A stretch of 23,741 nucleotides of DNA from positions 1 to 23,741 of IMG/VR virus record IMGVR_UViG_3300043409_001378. One strand, written 5' to 3'. The DNA comes from a virus. Positions within the stretch are counted from its first letter, which is position 1. The number at the start of each line of letters is the position of its first letter. Of the stretch, positions 6,658 through 18,652 are shown in pieces. The notes beneath the pieces are model-generated. The model was not told the origin of the DNA and searched no databases. It saw nothing but the letters and a program-made list of their open reading frames with translations. A program made the position numbers and the translations under genes.

Positions 6658-7521
6658 TTATGCGGCCGTAAGCACAATTGCGGCTGGGTCATACAGCGCT
6701 GGCATTTTGACAACGCCTTCTGGCAACAGCAATTTTGAGCCGATGCGCATACGCATATTGTGGGTCCAGCAATCCTTGCGGTTGTCCCATTCCACATTGC
6801 CAGTCAGCTCGCGCACGAAACCAAAGCCGACTGCAGAACGATGCCACATCAAGCACGTCACCTGTGTTGCACCCGCGCCCGTGCGCAATATCTTATCGGA
6901 AAGGGAGAAGATGTGCATACCGTTCCATGTCTTTGCCAAATTGCCTTTTGTAAAAGGCAAGTCAGGCCCAACATAGTCGGCATTTGCAATGCGCTTATCG
7001 CCAATAAGCATCGACCATGAAACGCTATCAACAGCGACAAACACGTTGCCGTCTTGCACTTCAACGTCATCAGCCATCAGCTTTTGCTTGGCGCGTACCA
7101 ATTGCTGCACCGACATGACCGTGCCGAATGAACCTTCGCTTTTTGTCGCGGCCTGTAGCGATGTGACAATGGTGCGATCATGCACGCGGCCAAGCGCCTT
7201 GGCAGAACGCATCGCAACAGCCTGTTTGCGATCCACTGTCATTTGGTCAAGATCGTCTTCATAGACCTCTTCAAAGGCCCGTGATTTCTTCGTATCGACC
7301 GAAACAATTGTATCGTTGGCATTGCTTGGCTTGGCGGTATCGCCGCGCTTCACATCTTCTTCCGCTTCGACCGCGCCGAAAACAGGGAAGTGCATTTTTT
7401 CACCGGTAATCTTTTCCGGTGCGGTTGTGGTATTTTTGAGCGCAAAGCCGCCCGATTGGTAAACATGCAACGCCTGTGTGCGCCATGCTTGGGTGTAATG
7501 ATTGGGTGCCGATGTGGACAT
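6658..7521 (-). CDS. Major capsid protein
   Basis: A 287-residue protein. It has the features of HK97-fold capsids of the P22-like/podovirus group: FPVFGAVEAEEDVKRGDTAKP near the N-terminus, then a conserved acidic DLDQMTVDRKQAVAMRSAKALGR helix, VFVAVDSVSWSMLI, a loop with KGNLAKTWNGMHIFSLSDK, and a C-terminal strand region ending in VLTAA. It is encoded directly after the scaffold-like gene. A GGGGAT ribosome binding site lies 5-8 nt before the ATG. The gene has its own candidate late promoter at 7642-7676 and a leader of about 120 nt, fitting a protein needed in hundreds of copies. Function is confident from family style and position. Confidence 0.88.
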   Translation of the reverse strand: MSTSAPNHYTQAWRTQALHVYQSGGFALKNTTTAPEKITGEKMHFPVFGAVEAEEDVKRGDTAKPSNANDTIVSVDTKKSRAFEEVYEDDLDQMTVDRKQAVAMRSAKALGRVHDRTIVTSLQAATKSEGSFGTVMSVQQLVRAKQKLMADDVEVQDGNVFVAVDSVSWSMLIGDKRIANADYVGPDLPFTKGNLAKTWNGMHIFSLSDKILRTGAGATQVTCLMWHRSAVGFGFVRELTGNVEWDNRKDCWTHNMRMRIGSKLLLPEGVVKMPALYDPAAIVLTAA

Positions 7522-10882: not shown

Positions 10883-11341
10883 TCAATCACTCCGAGAAAT
10901 ATTCTGATTTTGCGAAAGACTAGGCGTGAGTTTTGCGTGTTGCTTATTGAAAGCCAAGCGCAGCCATGTGCGGTGATGATTGCTAACCATTTCGCTCGTC
11001 GGCTCAAACCCTGCCAACACAGCCATATGCCGCCCCGCCTTATTGTCGTCGCGTATACGCACCACCAAATCCTTGTCTGGCTCATACATTGCCACACACA
11101 TCAGCAATTCGCGCCAAAGACCAACGCGGCGGGGAAGGTCTTTGATTTGCGGATTAAGCGACAACCAGCATTCAATCATGTCGCCAGCGGGGGCCGCGCC
11201 GCATAGCAGCACCGCCTTGCCATCCACCTCTAGCACCCACGATGGTGCCATGAGAATTTGGATTGCCACCGCGCGGCCTGATCGCCATGGCACATCGCCA
11301 AAGGCCACAAGGTCAACAGGGGTAGCAGCTCGCCACAGCAT
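10883..11341 (-). CDS. GNAT-like phage protein downstream of large terminase
   Basis: A 152-residue protein starting MLWRAATPVDLVAFGDVPW. The order of elements resembles a small GNAT-type acetyltransferase fold: an N-terminal 'R-x-A-T-P-x-D' strand-helix, a central AVLLCGAAPAGDMIECWL strand pair, and a helix containing RRVGLWRELLMCVAMYEPDKDLVVRIRDDN. Similar small proteins with this N-terminus are often encoded next to terminase or portal genes of podoviruses. A substrate is unknown and I cannot point to an intact acetyl-CoA-binding loop. The start overlaps the terminase stop (TGATG). The C-terminal 25 residues coincide with the late-promoter box and may not be functionally constrained. Confidence 0.6.
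   Translation of the reverse strand: MLWRAATPVDLVAFGDVPWRSGRAVAIQILMAPSWVLEVDGKAVLLCGAAPAGDMIECWLSLNPQIKDLPRRVGLWRELLMCVAMYEPDKDLVVRIRDDNKAGRHMAVLAGFEPTSEMVSNHHRTWLRLAFNKQHAKLTPSLSQNQNISRSD
10917..10950 (-). promoter_or_regulatory. Candidate phage late promoter, copy 2 (portal operon)
   Basis: Minus strand: TCAATAAGCAACACGC (10950-10935), 10 nt spacer, CCTAGTCT (10924-10917). It lies inside the last 70 bases of the GNAT-like gene, 40-70 nt before the small gene that opens the portal operon. It shares 20 bp (GCTTTCAATAAGCAACACGC) with copy 3. Because it is within a coding frame (encoding AFNKQHA), the gene's C-terminus may be shaped by the promoter. Confidence 0.6.
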
Positions 11342-12873
11342 CAGCTTGCCATCACGTCAAAATCAGTTTTGACAAACACAGTGCCGTGCGCGGCATCGTC
11401 TTCATCACCATCTTGATAAATCCGGTCACCGCGCCCCCCCATAAGCAGGCCGCGCTTGACGCCTTCAATCCCCATGAGGTCCATCACCCCATATTGCAGG
11501 GCGTCATGCGGGTTAGAAAACTCGTTCTTTTCCGGTGTTGGATCTGTTCCGACTTCACTGCCGCGCCGTTTTTTATAACGGTAATGCGAATTGAAGCCCT
11601 TGCGCAGCATCTTGCACACGGGTGAAATCAAGATCGCTGGCGTCTTGCCATCAATGCGATGTCGCAACAATTGGCGCACGCCGTCTTGGCGAATATCCAG
11701 CTCTTGGCTTTCGGCGGGGAAAATAGGCGCACCGATTATCCCCTCAACCGTTTGAAACATGCTTTTGTCGCCATTTTCGGTATCACCACCGGAAAAGCCT
11801 GCCGGATCGCCAGCCGCTCTCTCTATGGCAAAGCCACGATACTCGCTTTCCAGCATCCGTTTACAGCCCATTCCAAAGCCCGTTGGCCCGATACGTCCTG
11901 GTATATATTCATTCAAAACCCGCAACTGGCCGGAAGGCGTCCATTGCTTGACCAGCATGGCAGGCCCGCGAATGCCCTGGTCAAACGACAAGCGCAACTT
12001 CAAGCCAGCCAATGGCTGCAACGCGCTCTCTGCGCAATGTGTTGCGTCGTCATATTCTGGATAGACCGGCTCGCCCTCGCGGCTAAAGCCATATTGCCCG
12101 TCAACCATGCGGCGCACCCACCATGGCCTATGGGCGTTTTCCCGCGCCATGCGCTCGTAAATCTCACGGCCGATCGCACTGCGGTTTTCACCCAATGGGC
12201 CGCGACCGCTTGGCTGTTTGAATATTTTATGCCCCTCTGGCCGGATTTCTTCAAAAATATTGTAAATCCAACTGTCCACATCAGGCGGGTTTAAGTCGCC
12301 CGTCACGGACGTGTAATATTGCTGACCTTCATCAAACCAATCTTTGCGGGGATAGCGCTGTTGCAGCACGCGGCCTGAAGCGTAAGTCAGAATATCGCCT
12401 GCCATCAAATCGGCTTCGCCTAAGTTAACACTAGTCGGCTCAATACCGCGCAACGCGCTTTCAATGTCTTGATCCTGCATGGCTTGGAAGATGATCTCAA
12501 AATAGAGCTTACCACCATCAGGCATATCGAAAATCAATTCATGCGTTGCCCGCCGCCCGTCGCCGCCCGACCACTTGCCGACTTCCTTGCTGAACCATCC
12601 GACATTCCAGCTCTTAATCGTCGTGCCCCAAAGGTTCTGATAGGTATCGCGCAACTCGACATGGCGATAATAGCGGTTCCCCACGCGCTCCGGCCCGCCG
12701 CGCGTGCACTTTGGCATTTCCATCGCGCATTTGAGCTTGTCGAAAAAATTGACGTTGGTCTTACCAGACCCGAACGGCCCCATCATGAACCGAACCGTAT
12801 TGGTACGGTCCATCAGGTACGCACTGGCAACAGGCCCGGGCGATTGATACGAGCGAACGCTGAAATCACTCAT
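11341..12873 (-). CDS. terL: Terminase large subunit (packaging ATPase/nuclease)
   Basis: A 510-residue protein. The Walker A motif is GPFGSGKT at residues 32-39; the Walker B-like segment is SVNLGEADL near 148-156. The nuclease half begins at LRLSFDQGIRGPA (Asp298), followed by AGDPAGFSGG (354-363) and PHDALQYGV (455-463), the usual order of metal-binding acidic residues in phage terminases. ATG at 12873 is preferred: GAGGGG lies just upstream and it overlaps the preceding stop (ATGA), while a start 16 codons earlier would run into the upstream gene. The enzyme docks on the portal and pumps DNA into the prohead, cutting the concatemer. Confident. Confidence 0.95.
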   Translation of the reverse strand: MSDFSVRSYQSPGPVASAYLMDRTNTVRFMMGPFGSGKTNVNFFDKLKCAMEMPKCTRGGPERVGNRYYRHVELRDTYQNLWGTTIKSWNVGWFSKEVGKWSGGDGRRATHELIFDMPDGGKLYFEIIFQAMQDQDIESALRGIEPTSVNLGEADLMAGDILTYASGRVLQQRYPRKDWFDEGQQYYTSVTGDLNPPDVDSWIYNIFEEIRPEGHKIFKQPSGRGPLGENRSAIGREIYERMARENAHRPWWVRRMVDGQYGFSREGEPVYPEYDDATHCAESALQPLAGLKLRLSFDQGIRGPAMLVKQWTPSGQLRVLNEYIPGRIGPTGFGMGCKRMLESEYRGFAIERAAGDPAGFSGGDTENGDKSMFQTVEGIIGAPIFPAESQELDIRQDGVRQLLRHRIDGKTPAILISPVCKMLRKGFNSHYRYKKRRGSEVGTDPTPEKNEFSNPHDALQYGVMDLMGIEGVKRGLLMGGRGDRIYQDGDEDDAAHGTVFVKTDFDVMAS

Positions 12874-13154
12874 GACCCCTCCCCCGCACCCCAAGAGGCT
12901 TGGTTGAAAGTTCCCACCCATTCCCCTTGCTCGGCGCTAGCCGGAACCATTTGACCACGGAAAACCGCACGGCGCCTACCCAGACTATCTTGGGAAGTTG
13001 GTTTCGGGGATGGGTCGACCATGGCGCGGCGCGGAAATGAGGCCACCCCCCGTCGCATCATCTGCCCTGCTGCCCTGCCTCTTGTCGCCGTGCATGGCTT
13101 GGCCCGCTGTTTTTCAATCATCAGGTCAATGTCAACATTGTTAAACGTTTTCAA
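12870..13154 (-). CDS. Small basic unknown protein between the two terminase genes
   Basis: A 94-residue, Arg/Lys-rich protein. The frame begins with TTG at 13154 (AGGG 7 nt upstream), 9 nt after the small-terminase stop; an ATG at 13121 is the alternative. It ends in ATGA overlap with the large terminase. The middle (GRAAGQMMRRGVASFPRRAM) is strongly basic, as in small nucleic-acid-binding proteins. I recognise no family. The coupling to both neighbours argues it is translated, but composition is unusual and it could be a poorly conserved spacer gene. A packaging accessory role would be a guess from position only. Confidence 0.5.
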   Translation of the reverse strand: MKTFNNVDIDLMIEKQRAKPCTATRGRAAGQMMRRGVASFPRRAMVDPSPKPTSQDSLGRRRAVFRGQMVPASAEQGEWVGTFNQASWGAGEGS

Positions 13155-13163
13155 TGGCTTACC

Positions 13164-13757
13164 CTATTCGTTGGACGATTGATCATTGGACGCGGCGCTA
13201 TCGGCATTGCTAAGTCCTTGATTTTGTTCATTTTCTATTGTGACCGGCTCACTCTGCGCCGATAGCGTCAAATCCAGCCCAAACCCGCCAACTTCCCCGC
13301 CCGTTGCCGCCATGCCAACAATGAGCTGCAACATTCCAGCGTTTGCGCCTTCGATTTGCAGGGCTTGCGGCTGGCGCTGGGCGACGTAGGGCGCAAGATC
13401 GGACATGACTTTGCGGTGATATTCCGCCGCTTCCAGCTTTTTGCAGCCAAGCGTTTGCGCAATAACGTCTATCGGCGTCGCCACAATCTCCGCCATTGCG
13501 AGCAATGGATGCCGTCCGGTGGCCTGAATAAGTTTCACAAGGTCCGCAGTCGTCCGGTTTGGGCTACCCTTTGGCCGTCCCTTGCCGTTCGGGATCACCT
13601 TCGTGGTCCCCATGGTCAAAGTCCCGAACACGCTCGAACCTTCAAACAAGCCAAGCTGGTCAACCTCTGGATTGGCCGCAGCATTTTGAAGCGCCAACGC
13701 CCGCGCCGCATCATCCAGTTTCAGCGCTCCACGGACCCCACTTTCATCAACAGACAT
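13164..13757 (-). CDS. Terminase small subunit (probable)
   Basis: A 197-residue protein. The central GKGRPKGSPNRTTADLVKLI is a basic DNA-binding entry typical of phage small-terminase/HTH proteins. A helical region follows (HPLLAMAEIVATP, then AAEYHRKVMSDLAPYVAQRQPQALQI), which I recall from small terminase subunits of alphaproteobacterial and P22-like phages. The acidic, Asn/Ser-rich tail is probably disordered. ATG at 13757 has GGGGT about 6 nt upstream. It lies upstream of the large terminase and directly downstream of the symmetric repeat array, which would be a natural binding site for this protein. The function is inferred from motif and position. Confidence 0.75.
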   Translation of the reverse strand: MSVDESGVRGALKLDDAARALALQNAAANPEVDQLGLFEGSSVFGTLTMGTTKVIPNGKGRPKGSPNRTTADLVKLIQATGRHPLLAMAEIVATPIDVIAQTLGCKKLEAAEYHRKVMSDLAPYVAQRQPQALQIEGANAGMLQLIVGMAATGGEVGGFGLDLTLSAQSEPVTIENEQNQGLSNADSAASNDQSSNE

Positions 13758-13779: not shown

Positions 13780-14015
13780 TGGAACCGTGGAACTTAAGCA
13801 CCGTTCCAACTTTTTGAGAGTTAACCCCTTGATTATATTCCTCTTTCCTCTCTCTGGAACTGTGGAACTATGGAACATGAATATTTTGCGCGTGCACGCG
13901 CGAGTGTGTAGCGTGAGGTTTTTGTGGTTCCACGGTTCCAGTCGTCGTTTATCGAAAGATTTCAGCGGCTTACCTATGGAACCGGTGCGGGTTCCAGTCG
14001 GTTCCACGGTTCCAC
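13780..14015. repeat. Symmetric array of 12 GGAAC/GTTCC half-sites around a 14-bp palindrome (candidate cos/pac or operator)
   Basis: The gap 13758-14141 has no convincing gene. Left of centre, GGAAC starts at 13781, 13789, 13856, 13864 and 13872, plus one inverted GTTCC at 13803. Right of centre, GTTCC starts at 13927, 13935, 13991, 14001 and 14009, plus one inverted GGAAC at 13978. Neighbouring half-sites are mostly 8 bp apart, with core unit TGGAACCGTGGAAC. Between the halves lies the perfect palindrome GCGCGTGCACGCGC (13888-13901), whose centre is within about 3 bp of the centre of the array. The array starts 23 nt before the small-terminase start codon, so a packaging site bound by that protein is the leading idea. 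An operator or replication origin is the alternative. Confidence 0.8.
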
Positions 14016-14141: not shown

Positions 14142-14543
14142 TCAGTTGGCCTTTGCTGCTGTATTCAATATCTGCCGCGCCTCGCTGGCCGTGCGCAGCG
14201 TCGTGCGACTAAGCAATCCACCATTTTGATCTTCATCGCGGTCAATTGCAGTCAATACGCACCGCAACGCCTGCTCTAGCGACGCTTCTTTCATGCCTAT
14301 GGCGGGGGCTGGGGCAATGACACCCTGAATTTTGTCGGGCGCGAGCAGGCTAATATATTCTAGTATCTTATCAGCCGTCTCTGTTCGTCCGCCACAATGA
14401 ATAACATTGGCAATCGTCACCCCGTGAACGCCGTCAACATTGCCCTGCGCAGAAACGAGCCCTGCACAAAAGTTTTTATGTCTAAACCACGGTCCGGCAG
14501 GCAGTTCTGCGGCAAGCTTTAAAATACGCGCAATGTCACTCAT
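14142..14543 (-). CDS. Unknown phage protein, weak resemblance to Ead/Ea22-like proteins
   Basis: A 133-residue protein beginning MSDIARILKLAAELPAGPW. The segment TADKILEYISLLAPDKIQGV resembles the 'yIaaanPexvxxLl' motif of Ead/Ea22-like phage early proteins. ASLEQALRCVLTAIDRDEDQ and the C-terminal helix are also compatible, but this is a weak call. I chose ATG at 14543 (AAGGGATGCAGAGGT directly upstream) over an in-frame ATG at 14669, which would run through the neighbouring 54-residue gene. It is the last gene of the leftward replication operon before the array. Function unknown. Confidence 0.65.
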   Translation of the reverse strand: MSDIARILKLAAELPAGPWFRHKNFCAGLVSAQGNVDGVHGVTIANVIHCGGRTETADKILEYISLLAPDKIQGVIAPAPAIGMKEASLEQALRCVLTAIDRDEDQNGGLLSRTTLRTASEARQILNTAAKAN

Positions 14544-14564
14544 ACCTCTGCATCCCTTCGTTTC
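14541..14564 (-). repeat. Duplicated translation-initiation sequence, copy A
   Basis: These 24 bases match 14755-14778 at 22 of 24 positions. On the minus strand both read GAAACGAA, then A/G, then GGATGCAGAGG and a start ATG. In the other copy the sequence also encodes the last residues of the helicase (KRKDAEA and stop). Confidence 0.8.
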
Positions 14565-14592
14565 TCGCTCTCTGATGGGGCTAGGGGGACGG

Positions 14593-14757
14593 CTAAACTG
14601 TCCATTCATCCGCCCCGCCAAAGATTTCGTCATGCTCGCGCCATTTGGCGCATACCGCGCATGTTTCATCGTAGTCGTTGTGGCGCTTACCCCAAATGCG
14701 GCGGATATAAATCCACGAAATCAGTCGGTTGATGTGGTGGTTCACTGCGTGTCTCAT
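14593..14757 (-). CDS. 54-residue unknown protein with CxxC motif
   Basis: A short gene starting with ATG at 14757, overlapping the helicase stop as ATGA and using the ribosome binding site GAAAGGATGCAGAGG. The product is highly charged, with many His and Arg residues (RHAVNHHINR), an aromatic WIYIRRIW segment and DETCAVCAKWREHDEIF, where CAVC could bind zinc with nearby His. It ends with TAG at 14593, 49 nt before the next gene. The coupled start and ribosome binding site support translation. Function unknown. Confidence 0.65.
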   Translation of the reverse strand: MRHAVNHHINRLISWIYIRRIWGKRHNDYDETCAVCAKWREHDEIFGGADEWTV

Positions 14758-16682
14758 GCCTCTGCATCCTTTCGTTTCACAATGATCTTGCCCAGCCTGA
14801 ATGCGCTGCCCTTGGCCTTGTCGCCCGCAATGCGCCCGCTGGCGTCGCGCCGCGTGTCCAGCGGCGCATCTTTAAGCGAGCCCCCCCAAACACCGGCGCT
14901 CATTTCGCCTGCCCATTTGGTCCCTTTGAATAGCGCGTGAACCAGCGGGTTCTGGTTGGGCACAAACAGCTCATATTCGGGGTTGTCCGCGTTGGGCTGC
15001 AATATCGATAGCCCGGTCTGTTCCAAAAGCTTGCGGGCGCGGGCAAAGCCAAAGCCATCGTCCTCGGTCGGTCGCCCGGCAAGCGTCGCCATAAAGTCGA
15101 TCAGCACTTCCGAAACCGTGTGGCGTGATCCGCCGCGCCATGCGTCCACGCGCTGTGCCATCAAGTGGGTCAGGCACAATCGCCAATTGTCGGTACTGTC
15201 TTCAAATTCCGCCATTTGCGCCGCTTCCAAAACGCCGCGCCAGCCCTCAAAATCAACCGCCGCCGCCGCCATGTCCAGCCCCAGCGCCTCGGCGTCATGG
15301 TCGATGATCATGTCCGCCGCTGCCAGCAGTGTTCCGAATGTGTCCTGCCCGCGTCCGGTGTGGCCGCAAGAGGCGAGAAACTGCCGCCATGCGGCAAGCG
15401 TGGCTGGCCAGCGATGCCAATTGTCCATCAGGCGGCGCATGATCTGCCGCCCAAGCCGCATCATTTCATCTTCTTCAATGATCGGGCGCACCGCCTCGCT
15501 GTCCAGCTCGCGCAAGCGCAGCATCGCCATGCGGCTAAGGTCTTGTGGGTCCATGGCAGGCGCATTGATCATAGAAAAGATAAACGCGGAACGGCCATAA
15601 AATTGACTGCCCGTCCCCTTATCGCCGCCGCGCATGATCTTGCCGCCTGATGCCGAGCGCCGCGCCAGTTCGATCACTGCTTTCTGCTTGCGGTTGTCTT
15701 CCGTCGCCTCAAATTCGTCCAGCGAAAGCGGCAAGCAATCAAACTTCAAATCTTGATAAATGCCGGCCGCCGTCGCGTCGGTTGATTGTACTAAGAATGA
15801 ACCCATCAGCGATTTTAAGTCTTCTTGCAAAGCCGATTTGCCGCGTGCCTTGTCGCCAAGCATGAATATTTCCGGTCGCCAGCGCAGCGCCCCGCCCATA
15901 TAGGCCACGCCAATCCAGCCCATCAGCAACACAGGGTCGAGTTGGGGTCGGCTCCAATTCCATGTCTTGAAATGCGGAAAAAGTTTAAGTGCTGGCCCCG
16001 CTTGCGCACGCAGTGTTTTGGGCCATGGGCGTGGCAGTGGCGGGCGGGTCGGATAGACCATCCCTTCAAATTCGCCCAATCCCTCTTTAGCCTTGATGTC
16101 GTGTGATGAAATAATCCGGTCGCCCGCATGCAGCAAAAGCCGCCCGTCGCGCCCTTTCCAAAAGCCGCGCCCGCGCACCTTTTCCATCGCGTTCCATGCG
16201 CCTTTTTTGGCGCACGCAGCCATCAGCACCTCGCGCACTTTTTCTGGTCGCCAACTCGCCACGGCTCCGTCCTTGTCCTTTTTGGGAAAGGCCCAATAGA
16301 GCCAAAGGTGACGGCCCATGAATAGCGCGTTGATGCCAGCTTGGTTCATTTCGCCAGCGGCCAAAACGCGCATTTGGCCAATGGTGTCGAGAAATATAAA
16401 AGCCCCGTCATCGGTGCCCAGCGGCAAAACCGGACAGCCGGGCGGCAATCCGTCTTCGTCCGCTTCCCATTCGCCAGGCTTTATGCCGTCCAGCGTTTGG
16501 TTGGGCTTGGGGTCACCAAGACCGATGCGGTGCAGCGCCTCGCGGTCGTCGTCTTCCTTTTCAGCCTCGGCAATCATGGCCGCAACAGCCGCCTTTCCCG
16601 CACTCGGGTTGGCCGAATGGATGCGCTCAAATGCGCCAGCCTTGCCAACGGCATAGGGATTATACTCGTCTGCTGCGGTCAT
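14754..16682 (-). CDS. Phage replicative helicase/ATPase (SF3, D5/VapE-like type)
   Basis: A 642-residue protein. Walker A is GDKARGKS (residues 276-283); Walker B is LPLSLDEF (D322, E323). A sensor-like FIFSMINAP lies at 367-375 and a possible arginine finger in DLSRMAMLRLRE (381-392). This spacing fits the superfamily-3/D5-type ATPases that phages and mobile islands use with a Toprim primase. The N-terminal 260 residues include FLDTIGQMRVLAAGEMNQAG and GAWNAMEKVRGRGFWKGRDG, stretches seen in related phage ATPases without a defined domain name. It is encoded two genes after the primase in the same operon, so the pair probably forms the phage replisome core. Confidence 0.85.
   Translation of the reverse strand: MTAADEYNPYAVGKAGAFERIHSANPSAGKAAVAAMIAEAEKEDDDREALHRIGLGDPKPNQTLDGIKPGEWEADEDGLPPGCPVLPLGTDDGAFIFLDTIGQMRVLAAGEMNQAGINALFMGRHLWLYWAFPKKDKDGAVASWRPEKVREVLMAACAKKGAWNAMEKVRGRGFWKGRDGRLLLHAGDRIISSHDIKAKEGLGEFEGMVYPTRPPLPRPWPKTLRAQAGPALKLFPHFKTWNWSRPQLDPVLLMGWIGVAYMGGALRWRPEIFMLGDKARGKSALQEDLKSLMGSFLVQSTDATAAGIYQDLKFDCLPLSLDEFEATEDNRKQKAVIELARRSASGGKIMRGGDKGTGSQFYGRSAFIFSMINAPAMDPQDLSRMAMLRLRELDSEAVRPIIEEDEMMRLGRQIMRRLMDNWHRWPATLAAWRQFLASCGHTGRGQDTFGTLLAAADMIIDHDAEALGLDMAAAAVDFEGWRGVLEAAQMAEFEDSTDNWRLCLTHLMAQRVDAWRGGSRHTVSEVLIDFMATLAGRPTEDDGFGFARARKLLEQTGLSILQPNADNPEYELFVPNQNPLVHALFKGTKWAGEMSAGVWGGSLKDAPLDTRRDASGRIAGDKAKGSAFRLGKIIVKRKDAEA
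14755..14778 (-). repeat. Duplicated translation-initiation sequence, copy B
   Basis: Second copy of the element at 14541-14564. Here it carries both the 3' end of the helicase and the ribosome binding site/start of the 54-residue gene. Confidence 0.8.
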
Positions 16683-17168: not shown

Positions 17169-18293
17169 TTAGTCCTTTCCTGCCAAAAGATCATTCACAT
17201 CTTTCCCGCGCCAGCTTCTGGCCACAAACACGGGAATGTTTTGCCGCTTCAATGCAGCAATAGCGGTGTCGAGCTGGGCAATCGCCTGCGGCTTATCCCA
17301 GTCATTGTCGGCACAAACGGTGATGGATGAAACGCACGGCAACACCGGCACATGCGCTAAATTGGAAAGACTGGTCGCCGCCCAAACGCGATGATCGGGG
17401 CACGCAATCATCACCGACAGCGCATCTTCAATGCCCTCGGTGATCACCAGCTTGGTCCGTGCGCCCTGCCGTGCGGCTTCCTCTGGCGAATAATTGCCAG
17501 CGCCCTTGGCCACGCGCACCACGGCTTGCGTTCCGGCAAAGCTTGGCCACATTTTGCGCGGCTTGTTCAAATCAGCCTGCGGAAATTCCGCTTTGCCAAG
17601 TCCGTCTTTTGCCAGCCATGTGCGATGCACCGCCGCTGGCTTGCCATCCGCGCCAGACATGAGCGAAATCAAGCAAGGGTGTCCGCTCACCTTGCTGCCA
17701 TCCGCCATGCGGTAATCGTGCGCCTCAAAAAATGCGATAGCGCCCGGCAACGCCCGCCCATAATCCAGCCACTCGGTCTGCAAGTTGATGCCGCGTGAAA
17801 GAAAGTATCGCTCGGCCAATGAACCAGAAAAATTCTTGGCGTCCAGCTTGGTCGCGCTCTGCCACAGCTTGAATGCGCTCCACCGGTTGTTGTGGTTTTC
17901 GCGCTCGGCTTCGATTTGACGCTGGCTTTGCCTTTTGGCCAGCTCTGCCATGCGCTGTTTGCGTGCCGCCTCGTCTTCGTCCACGCCGTCTGTTGGCCAG
18001 CCCAAAAAGCGGCAAGCCTCTTGGCGAATGGTTTTCAAATCTTGCGTGCCAATGCCAAGGCCAATCAGCTTGATGATATCGCCCTGTTCGCCGCTGCTGG
18101 CGTCTTTCCACGCGCCAACGGGATGGCGCAAATGGATCCAAAATGATCCTGCATGTGTATCTTTGCGTGCCGGATTGCGGGCAATCCAATAGCCGCCATT
18201 CTTGCGTCCATCGCCAAAATAAGCGAGACACACATCATCAATGCGTGAAATCAGCGCCGCGCGAATGTCTTTAAAGTCCGGCCCTTTGCCCAT
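17169..18293 (-). CDS. Toprim-domain DNA primase
   Basis: A 374-residue protein. N-terminal residues about 30-80 (GYWIARNPARKDTHAGSFWI, then WKDASSGEQGDIIKLIG) look like the CHC2/primase zinc-ribbon fold with the cysteines replaced. A charged helical linker (about 105-140) follows. The C-terminal Toprim domain shows LVITEGIEDALSV (catalytic Glu286) and ITVCADNDWDKP (Asp329, Asp331), and the end has WRGKDVNDLLAG, typical of Toprim primases. ATG at 18293 is chosen because it starts 2 nt past the previous stop; a start at 18410 would overlap that gene by over 100 nt. It should make RNA primers at the phage fork with the downstream helicase. Confidence 0.9.
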   Translation of the reverse strand: MGKGPDFKDIRAALISRIDDVCLAYFGDGRKNGGYWIARNPARKDTHAGSFWIHLRHPVGAWKDASSGEQGDIIKLIGLGIGTQDLKTIRQEACRFLGWPTDGVDEDEAARKQRMAELAKRQSQRQIEAERENHNNRWSAFKLWQSATKLDAKNFSGSLAERYFLSRGINLQTEWLDYGRALPGAIAFFEAHDYRMADGSKVSGHPCLISLMSGADGKPAAVHRTWLAKDGLGKAEFPQADLNKPRKMWPSFAGTQAVVRVAKGAGNYSPEEAARQGARTKLVITEGIEDALSVMIACPDHRVWAATSLSNLAHVPVLPCVSSITVCADNDWDKPQAIAQLDTAIAALKRQNIPVFVARSWRGKDVNDLLAGKD

Positions 18294-18295
18294 GC

Positions 18296-18652
18296 TCAAA
18301 CAGCCCCAGGCGATGGGTTGGTCAATTGATATGTCAGCCGGTCGTAAAACTGATCCAGCACGGGATCGTCGCGCCGGTCTTCGCACTTGCGGCAAATCCG
18401 CGTGATGCAAGCGCGGTTGAGGCCAATCGTGCGTGAAAGCCGAATAGCCGAAACGCCCTTGGCCACCACAGTCAAGTAAATCACGCTCATGTGCATCACG
18501 CGCCGCTTATTGTGTGCCCCGCAATTGATACGGCCTTGCTGTGTCAGGTCTGCCAGCGGCAACCCGCTCACGCCCGCCACCACTTGTGCCACTTGCAAGT
18601 AAGCCGCTAAATCCAACGGTGATTGATAAGAGCGCACCCATTGCCGTTTCAT
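18296..18652 (-). CDS. DnaA C-terminal-domain-like HTH protein
   Basis: A 118-residue protein. VAQVVAGVSGLPLADLTQQGR, then NKRRVMHMSVIYLTVVAKGVS and the HTH-like AIRLSRTIGLNRACITRICRK follow the order of the DnaA domain IV (DnaA-box binding) fold: a helix, an 'R...R..amYL' helix and a recognition helix. There is no AAA+ ATPase part; the whole protein is the DNA-binding unit plus short tails. Alphaproteobacterial phages commonly encode such stand-alone domains. It overlaps the upstream gene by 4 nt and precedes the primase, so an origin-recognition or regulatory role is plausible. That role is inferred. Confidence 0.7.
   Translation of the reverse strand: MKRQWVRSYQSPLDLAAYLQVAQVVAGVSGLPLADLTQQGRINCGAHNKRRVMHMSVIYLTVVAKGVSAIRLSRTIGLNRACITRICRKCEDRRDDPVLDQFYDRLTYQLTNPSPGAV

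Follow-up and report, generated by a model that had tools for sequence, protein, structure and literature searches.

In this study, we analysed a 23,741-nucleotide stretch of viral DNA (the window) computationally and concluded that its array of 12 TGGAAC hexamers is probably a phage replication origin, a mirrored and doubled relative of the SaPI/PICI type. This reading was favoured because the repeat word follows the neighbouring helicase and not the small terminase (TerS), the large terminase (TerL) or the Toprim primase, because the array also exists beside other terminases and on the terminase-free plasmid L296, because a TerS relative without this helicase (L224) has no array, and because the helicase is predicted to fold like SF3 initiators, including the SaPI5 primase-helicase. 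An earlier note on this DNA had listed a replication origin as one alternative, and it is now the best-supported explanation. Since the closeness of the helicase gene varies and autonomous replication is only proposed, the array is best filed with sites that function in the manner of a PICI-type rep-ori, and not yet as an established member of that type.

The genes of the window run leftward in the order Toprim primase, helicase, a 175-aa ORF (14142-14669), array, probable small terminase and large terminase, followed by a head-tail connector, the major head protein and tail genes. The features are as follows.

11341-12921, minus strand: large terminase, 526 aa, about 31% identical to TerL of BcepC6B
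13164-13757, minus strand: probable small terminase, 197 aa, assigned by position and a GRPxG motif
13780-14014, no strand: whole array of 12 TGGAAC hexamers, proposed replication origin
13780-13808: left outer iteron group, with members at 13780 (plus), 13788 (plus) and 13803 (minus)
13809-13854, no strand: left AT-rich stretch, 63% A+T, candidate melting region
13822-13834, minus strand: IHF-like site AATCAAGGGGTTA, a perfect match to WATCAANNNNTTR, by sequence match only
13855-13876, plus strand: left inner iteron triplet (13855, 13863 and 13871), 8-bp spacing, invariant in nine relatives
13877-13926, no strand: centre with alternating GC tract
13888-13901, no strand: palindrome GCGCGTGCACGCGC, replaced in relatives by an alternating purine/pyrimidine tract
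13927-13940, minus strand: right inner iteron pair (13927 and 13935), 8-bp spacing
13941-13976, no strand: right AT-rich stretch, 56% A+T, with an IHF-like site that is weak here and good in most close relatives
13977-14014: right outer iteron group, with members at 13977 (plus), 13991 (minus), 14001 (minus) and 14009 (minus)
14754-16682, minus strand: helicase, 642 aa, predicted SF3-type fold, proposed iteron-binding initiator (from PHROG 'DNA primase' hits, AlphaFold, Foldseek and the motif association)
17169-18410, minus strand: Toprim/DUF7146 primase, of the same replication module as the helicase

The twelve half-sites described in the earlier note match at every position, and each is part of a full TGGAAC hexamer. 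A count of 12 within 235 bp is far above chance: in 40 first-order Markov sequences, each of the length of the window, the highest count reached by any hexamer was 4-7 per 240 bp. The array ends 22 nt before the start codon of the small terminase, at 13757. As to the symmetric layout claimed before, a mirror partner was found for 11 of the 12 sites at a tolerance of 6 bp, but for only 8 of the 12 at 3 bp, at which the symmetry of the window array alone was not significant; it is the mirror-partner counts across the whole family, given below, that make the symmetry decisive. The palindrome, which had been taken as the centre of the layout, does lie near it (2.5 bp from the array centre), but the palindrome itself is not kept, and relatives show an alternating, mostly CG tract in its place.

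The close relatives comprised nine IMG/VR contigs whose small terminases are 46-60% identical, and the TGGAAC array lies directly upstream of the small-terminase start in all nine, with inner triplets that are near-invariant in the alignment. The array is thus kept in relatives that share the terminase genes, where the earlier note had proposed to look for it, and this conservation means that it is functional. The same comparison could not separate replication from packaging, because the array is flanked by one gene of each kind. For two of the group's IMG/VR contigs the ends join into a circle, fully or nearly, which says nothing for or against packaging at the array. Prophages of the group were found in Jiella, Nitratireductor and Oricola. 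The Jiella prophage (38.4 kb) and the Oricola prophage (36.5 kb) are bounded by att repeats of 66 bp and 54 bp, respectively, at tRNA-Lys (CTT), and the array lies at least 12 kb inside both. In these two host genomes, the tandem motif TGGAACNNTGGAAC is nearly restricted to the prophage array; therefore, the protein that binds the array is probably phage-encoded, and a site for a host protein was rejected. No such array was found in BcepC6B and MEP301, which have a related TerL. Within INPHARED, tandem TGGAAC occurred only in Providencia phage Kokobel2, where intergenic tandem GGTTCCAC repeats are present in two places in the record (L158:8001-8024), about 4 kb from the large terminase gene.

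The comparison was extended to 57 loci by scanning for the helicase family. About 45 of them, some near-identical to one another, have an array of 230-285 bp, built from a single hexamer, between the helicase and the large terminase. The repeat words differ between groups, with the cores GGAAC, GTAAC, CTAAC, ATAAC, TGAAC, AGAAC, AGACA, GTGAC, TGTAC and CAAC when sorted by our own grouping into five-base cores, and the word in L209 is GGTAAC. The half-layout is constant: an outer group whose sites are 11-13 or 20-22 bp apart, a gap of 40-57 bp and an inner group with 8-bp spacing, after which come a centre of 46-95 bp between the inner groups and the mirror image of the first half. In 37 arrays taken together, a mirror partner was found for 340 of the 403 sites; shuffling the strands left 261 ± 8.5 such sites, and shuffling the gaps left 230 ± 8. 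A clear array was not found in the distant helicase relatives L210-L215.

The composition of the arrays is also shared across the family. The mean AT fraction rises from 0.31 at the centre to 0.58-0.61 at a distance of 55-75 bp on both sides, and the longest alternating purine/pyrimidine run has a median of 22 nt (null median 10). In the alignment of the close relatives, most have near-IHF-consensus sequences about 70 bp to either side of the centre.

Both neighbours of the array were compared with the repeat word, and the word follows the helicase. Given TerS and TerL, the partial Mantel correlation between word and helicase was 0.32 (p = 0.0005), while the Mantel analysis for TerS gave r = -0.06, which was not significant. 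When the word was predicted from the nearest neighbour with close genomes left out, the helicase was correct in 23/36 cases, TerS in 7-11/36 and TerL in 8-10/36; with the Toprim primase as a control, the helicase was correct in 24/34, the Toprim primase in 10/34 and TerS in 7/34. No part of TerS predicted the word above chance (AUC 0.47-0.60). As a limit on these comparisons, sequence identity is a crude measure for such a fast-evolving protein. The association of the word with the replication module is firm, and that with the helicase itself is a little less firm because the Toprim primase (AUC 0.76) equals the helicase (0.75) by pairwise AUC, which is a cruder measure.

The helicase has no Pfam match. 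Its AlphaFold model (pLDDT 83) matched AsfvPrimPol, poxvirus D5/E5 and the SaPI5 primase-helicase in Foldseek, a result consistent with an SF3-type fold, and the weak sequence matches seen around Walker A point the same way. For SaPI Rep helicases, the iterons that they bind lie immediately downstream of the rep gene (PMC7581432). In PICI origins, two iteron sets surround an AT-rich region 3' of rep, and one such origin was able to drive plasmid maintenance (PMC6092414).

The array is not tied to one set of terminase genes. In L208, a helicase relative and a GGAAC-core array lie beside a lambda-type terminase, as judged by reading the ORFs, and in the phage-plasmids L297 and L298 (Leisingera, Phaeobacter) a GTAAC-type array directly follows the helicase gene in the company of other terminases. 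On L296, an Arsenophonus nasoniae linear plasmid of 8,190 bp with five annotated genes, one of them a telomere resolvase, the helicase gene is followed at 63 bp by a mirrored ATTACA array, and no terminase was found by annotation or by terminase profiles. A second linear plasmid of this host, L300 (about 8 kb), has a symmetric GTAACA array 52 bp after the helicase gene. Both Arsenophonus plasmids are natural replicons with both helicase and array. L300 (plasmid paPv15) also encodes, at 6797-7381, a Terminase_2 small terminase with no recognised large terminase, which recalls a phage satellite.

Considering these results, we propose a model in which the hexamers would be iterons for the phage SF3-type helicase. 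Each arm would form one unit, consisting of an iteron set, an AT-rich stretch that IHF could bend and a second iteron set, and the two units would stand head to head around the alternating GC core. Helicase protomers would bind the inner and outer groups while IHF bends the stretch between them, and two helicase hexamers would then load symmetrically. The AT-rich stretches would melt and two forks would leave in opposite directions, with the Toprim primase priming and host enzymes extending. It is somewhat probable, in our judgement, that this represents an undescribed class of phage and plasmid origin, in which two mirrored PICI-type units flank a GC-rich, possibly Z-DNA-forming core and two SF3 rings load head to head with the help of IHF. 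Part of the same reading, and favoured to a similarly modest degree, is that over dozens of phages a change of helicase brings a change of word with it, and that the natural pairs would amount to an initiator-specificity code.

Several observations count against an origin. GC skew showed no sign change at the array within the window, and the GC-rich centre differs from a usual unwinding element. In L206, the array lies before TerS while the helicase is displaced. In L170, an intact mirrored GCGAAC array (L170:901-1175) lies 3.6 kb upstream of the helicase, adjoining likely capsid genes, on an 11-kb contig in which no terminase gene was found; we regard this as a rearranged genome or assembly. 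L206 and L170 do not exclude an origin, because an origin need not touch the gene of its initiator. The distance from helicase to array is 52-63 bp on the Arsenophonus plasmids, has a median of about 320 bp in phages, and is 740 bp for the window array and as much as 3.5 kb elsewhere.

The proposed origin shares much with the SaPI/PICI rep-ori sites of SaPIbov1, SaPI5 and EcCICFT073, which also have short iterons beside the initiator helicase gene and iteron words that differ between elements (PMC6092414, PMC7581432). Two iteron sets around an AT-rich stretch are found here in each arm (AT 0.58-0.61), the matching of iteron word to initiator appears here as a statistical association, and an AAA+/SF3-type helicase initiator is indicated by the predicted fold, which the window helicase would share with SaPI5 Rep. 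In contrast to those sites, two units are mirrored here around a GC-rich alternating core, IHF-like sites lie within the AT-rich stretches, the distance between site and helicase gene can reach 3.5 kb, and the site is hosted by temperate phages, phage-plasmids and a linear plasmid. The alpha protein of P4, with ori/crr, is likewise a phage-encoded helicase initiator acting on iterons, but there a single polypeptide carries the Toprim primase, the helicase and the winged-helix origin-binding domain (PMC4234260), whereas the Toprim primase is a separate ORF here (17169-18410). In pRN1 and in Bordetella phage BIP-1/BPP-1, too, the origin lies immediately 3' of the gene for an SF3 helicase, and for pRN1 symmetry was taken to mean two forks; these origins differ in having large stem-loops and, according to the authors, no iteron structure (PMC4234260), in contrast to the many-site iteron array described here. 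SV40 large T-antigen and papilloma E1 have been named as SF3 helicases (PMC7581432, PMC4234260). Their origins differ from the present array in that the site cluster is much smaller, the DNA-binding domains are other ones and the viruses are eukaryotic. As in the model proposed here, the helicases of these origins recognise short sites and load as two hexamers.

The strongest rival, although an unlikely one, is a packaging initiation site (cos or pac), at which TerS would bind the hexamers on both sides, IHF would bend the arms and TerL would cut the GC core, as in P1 pac or a symmetric lambda cos. The position before the small-terminase start is close and conserved, and a packaging role is still conceivable because the distance from the end of the array to that start is in most cases no more than about 160 bp (at most 162 bp in 43 of 47 genomes); in 17 of these, inserted genes place the helicase 0.74-3.5 kb from the array, while the array is still near TerS. 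Hexamer clusters on both sides of the cut together with an IHF site make up P1 pac (PMC10028697). In lambda cosB, an IHF site separates repeated TerS sites, and in SPP1 there are TerS oligomers on either side of the cut (PMC4856287). P1 pac and lambda cosB thus share with the array repeated short sites and an IHF site at or near the small-terminase gene (PMC10028697, PMC4856287). However, P1 pac lies inside pacA and its hexamers contain Dam GATC, whereas TGGAAC contains no GATC and the array lies 22 nt upstream of the gene; the R sites of lambda cos are on one side of the cut, whereas the sites here are mirrored on both sides.

What sets the array apart from cos and pac in general is that it persists without a terminase and that its word follows neither TerS nor TerL. 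It is found on the terminase-free L296 and beside the lambda-type terminase of L208, and is absent from L224, whose TerS is related. No match to a curated family or to a PDB sequence was found for the window TerS (13164-13757), and its predicted fold, of low confidence (pLDDT 56), was left out of the argument. A search of INPHARED with it gave no match, and it showed no profile similarity to the TerS of another array-bearing phage group. The small terminase is probably not the binder of the array. We had first favoured cos or pac on the basis of position and the symmetric IHF-like sites, and dropped it after the association tests, L208 and the plasmids; the suggestion of the earlier note that the half-sites bind terminase around a cos cut is not supported on the same evidence. 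A repeat array adjoining a small-terminase gene should not by itself be read as a packaging site.

An operator array, through which a phage regulator would control read-through into the late (packaging) genes, is less probable still. Intergenic repeated sites before a late operon would suit such a role, but no regulator gene was found to track the array, the array persists on an 8-kb plasmid that has no late genes, and 12 mirrored sites over 235 bp with long spacers would be unusual for a simple operator. An attP with arm-type integrase and IHF sites, which tandem repeats, IHF-like sites and the TGGAAC triplets near a tyrosine integrase in some unrelated contigs might suggest, is extremely improbable and was ruled out for the group by the position of the att repeats at tRNA-Lys in two prophages, with the array at least 12 kb inside.

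The proposed origin would be a mirrored relative of a known origin type, spread over a large group of temperate phages, phage-plasmids and linear plasmids with at least 10 recognition words. Confirmation would give origins to an entire group of phages that are so far uncharacterised and would tie a family of helicases that has no Pfam model to origin firing, and many natural pairs would be available for learning how an initiator reads its DNA word.

Further arrays were observed outside this family. In unrelated phages with a Prim-Pol/D5 primase-helicase (L016, L049, L060, L061, L065, L083, L098 and L127), a TGGAAC array follows that gene at a median of 46 bp, which suggests that other SF3 helicases use the same origin plan. 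L241 carries a GTTACC array (L241:5715-5886) with an alternating purine/pyrimidine centre at the end of a primase gene, and both its primase and its small terminase are different. In L047, L048, L088 and L094, TGGAAC triplets lie close to a tyrosine integrase gene and might represent arm sites of an attP instead of origins. A large phage group with a TerL of phrog_38 (L066, L077, L111 and about 35 other loci) has outward-facing TGGAAC arrays whose centre measures 98-124 bp; they lie between divergent gene blocks, 1.3 kb from the small terminase. An 83-bp TGGAAC cluster 46 bp after an exonuclease gene lies within a conserved gene block in L026, L027, L034, L035, L045, L067, L090 and L133.
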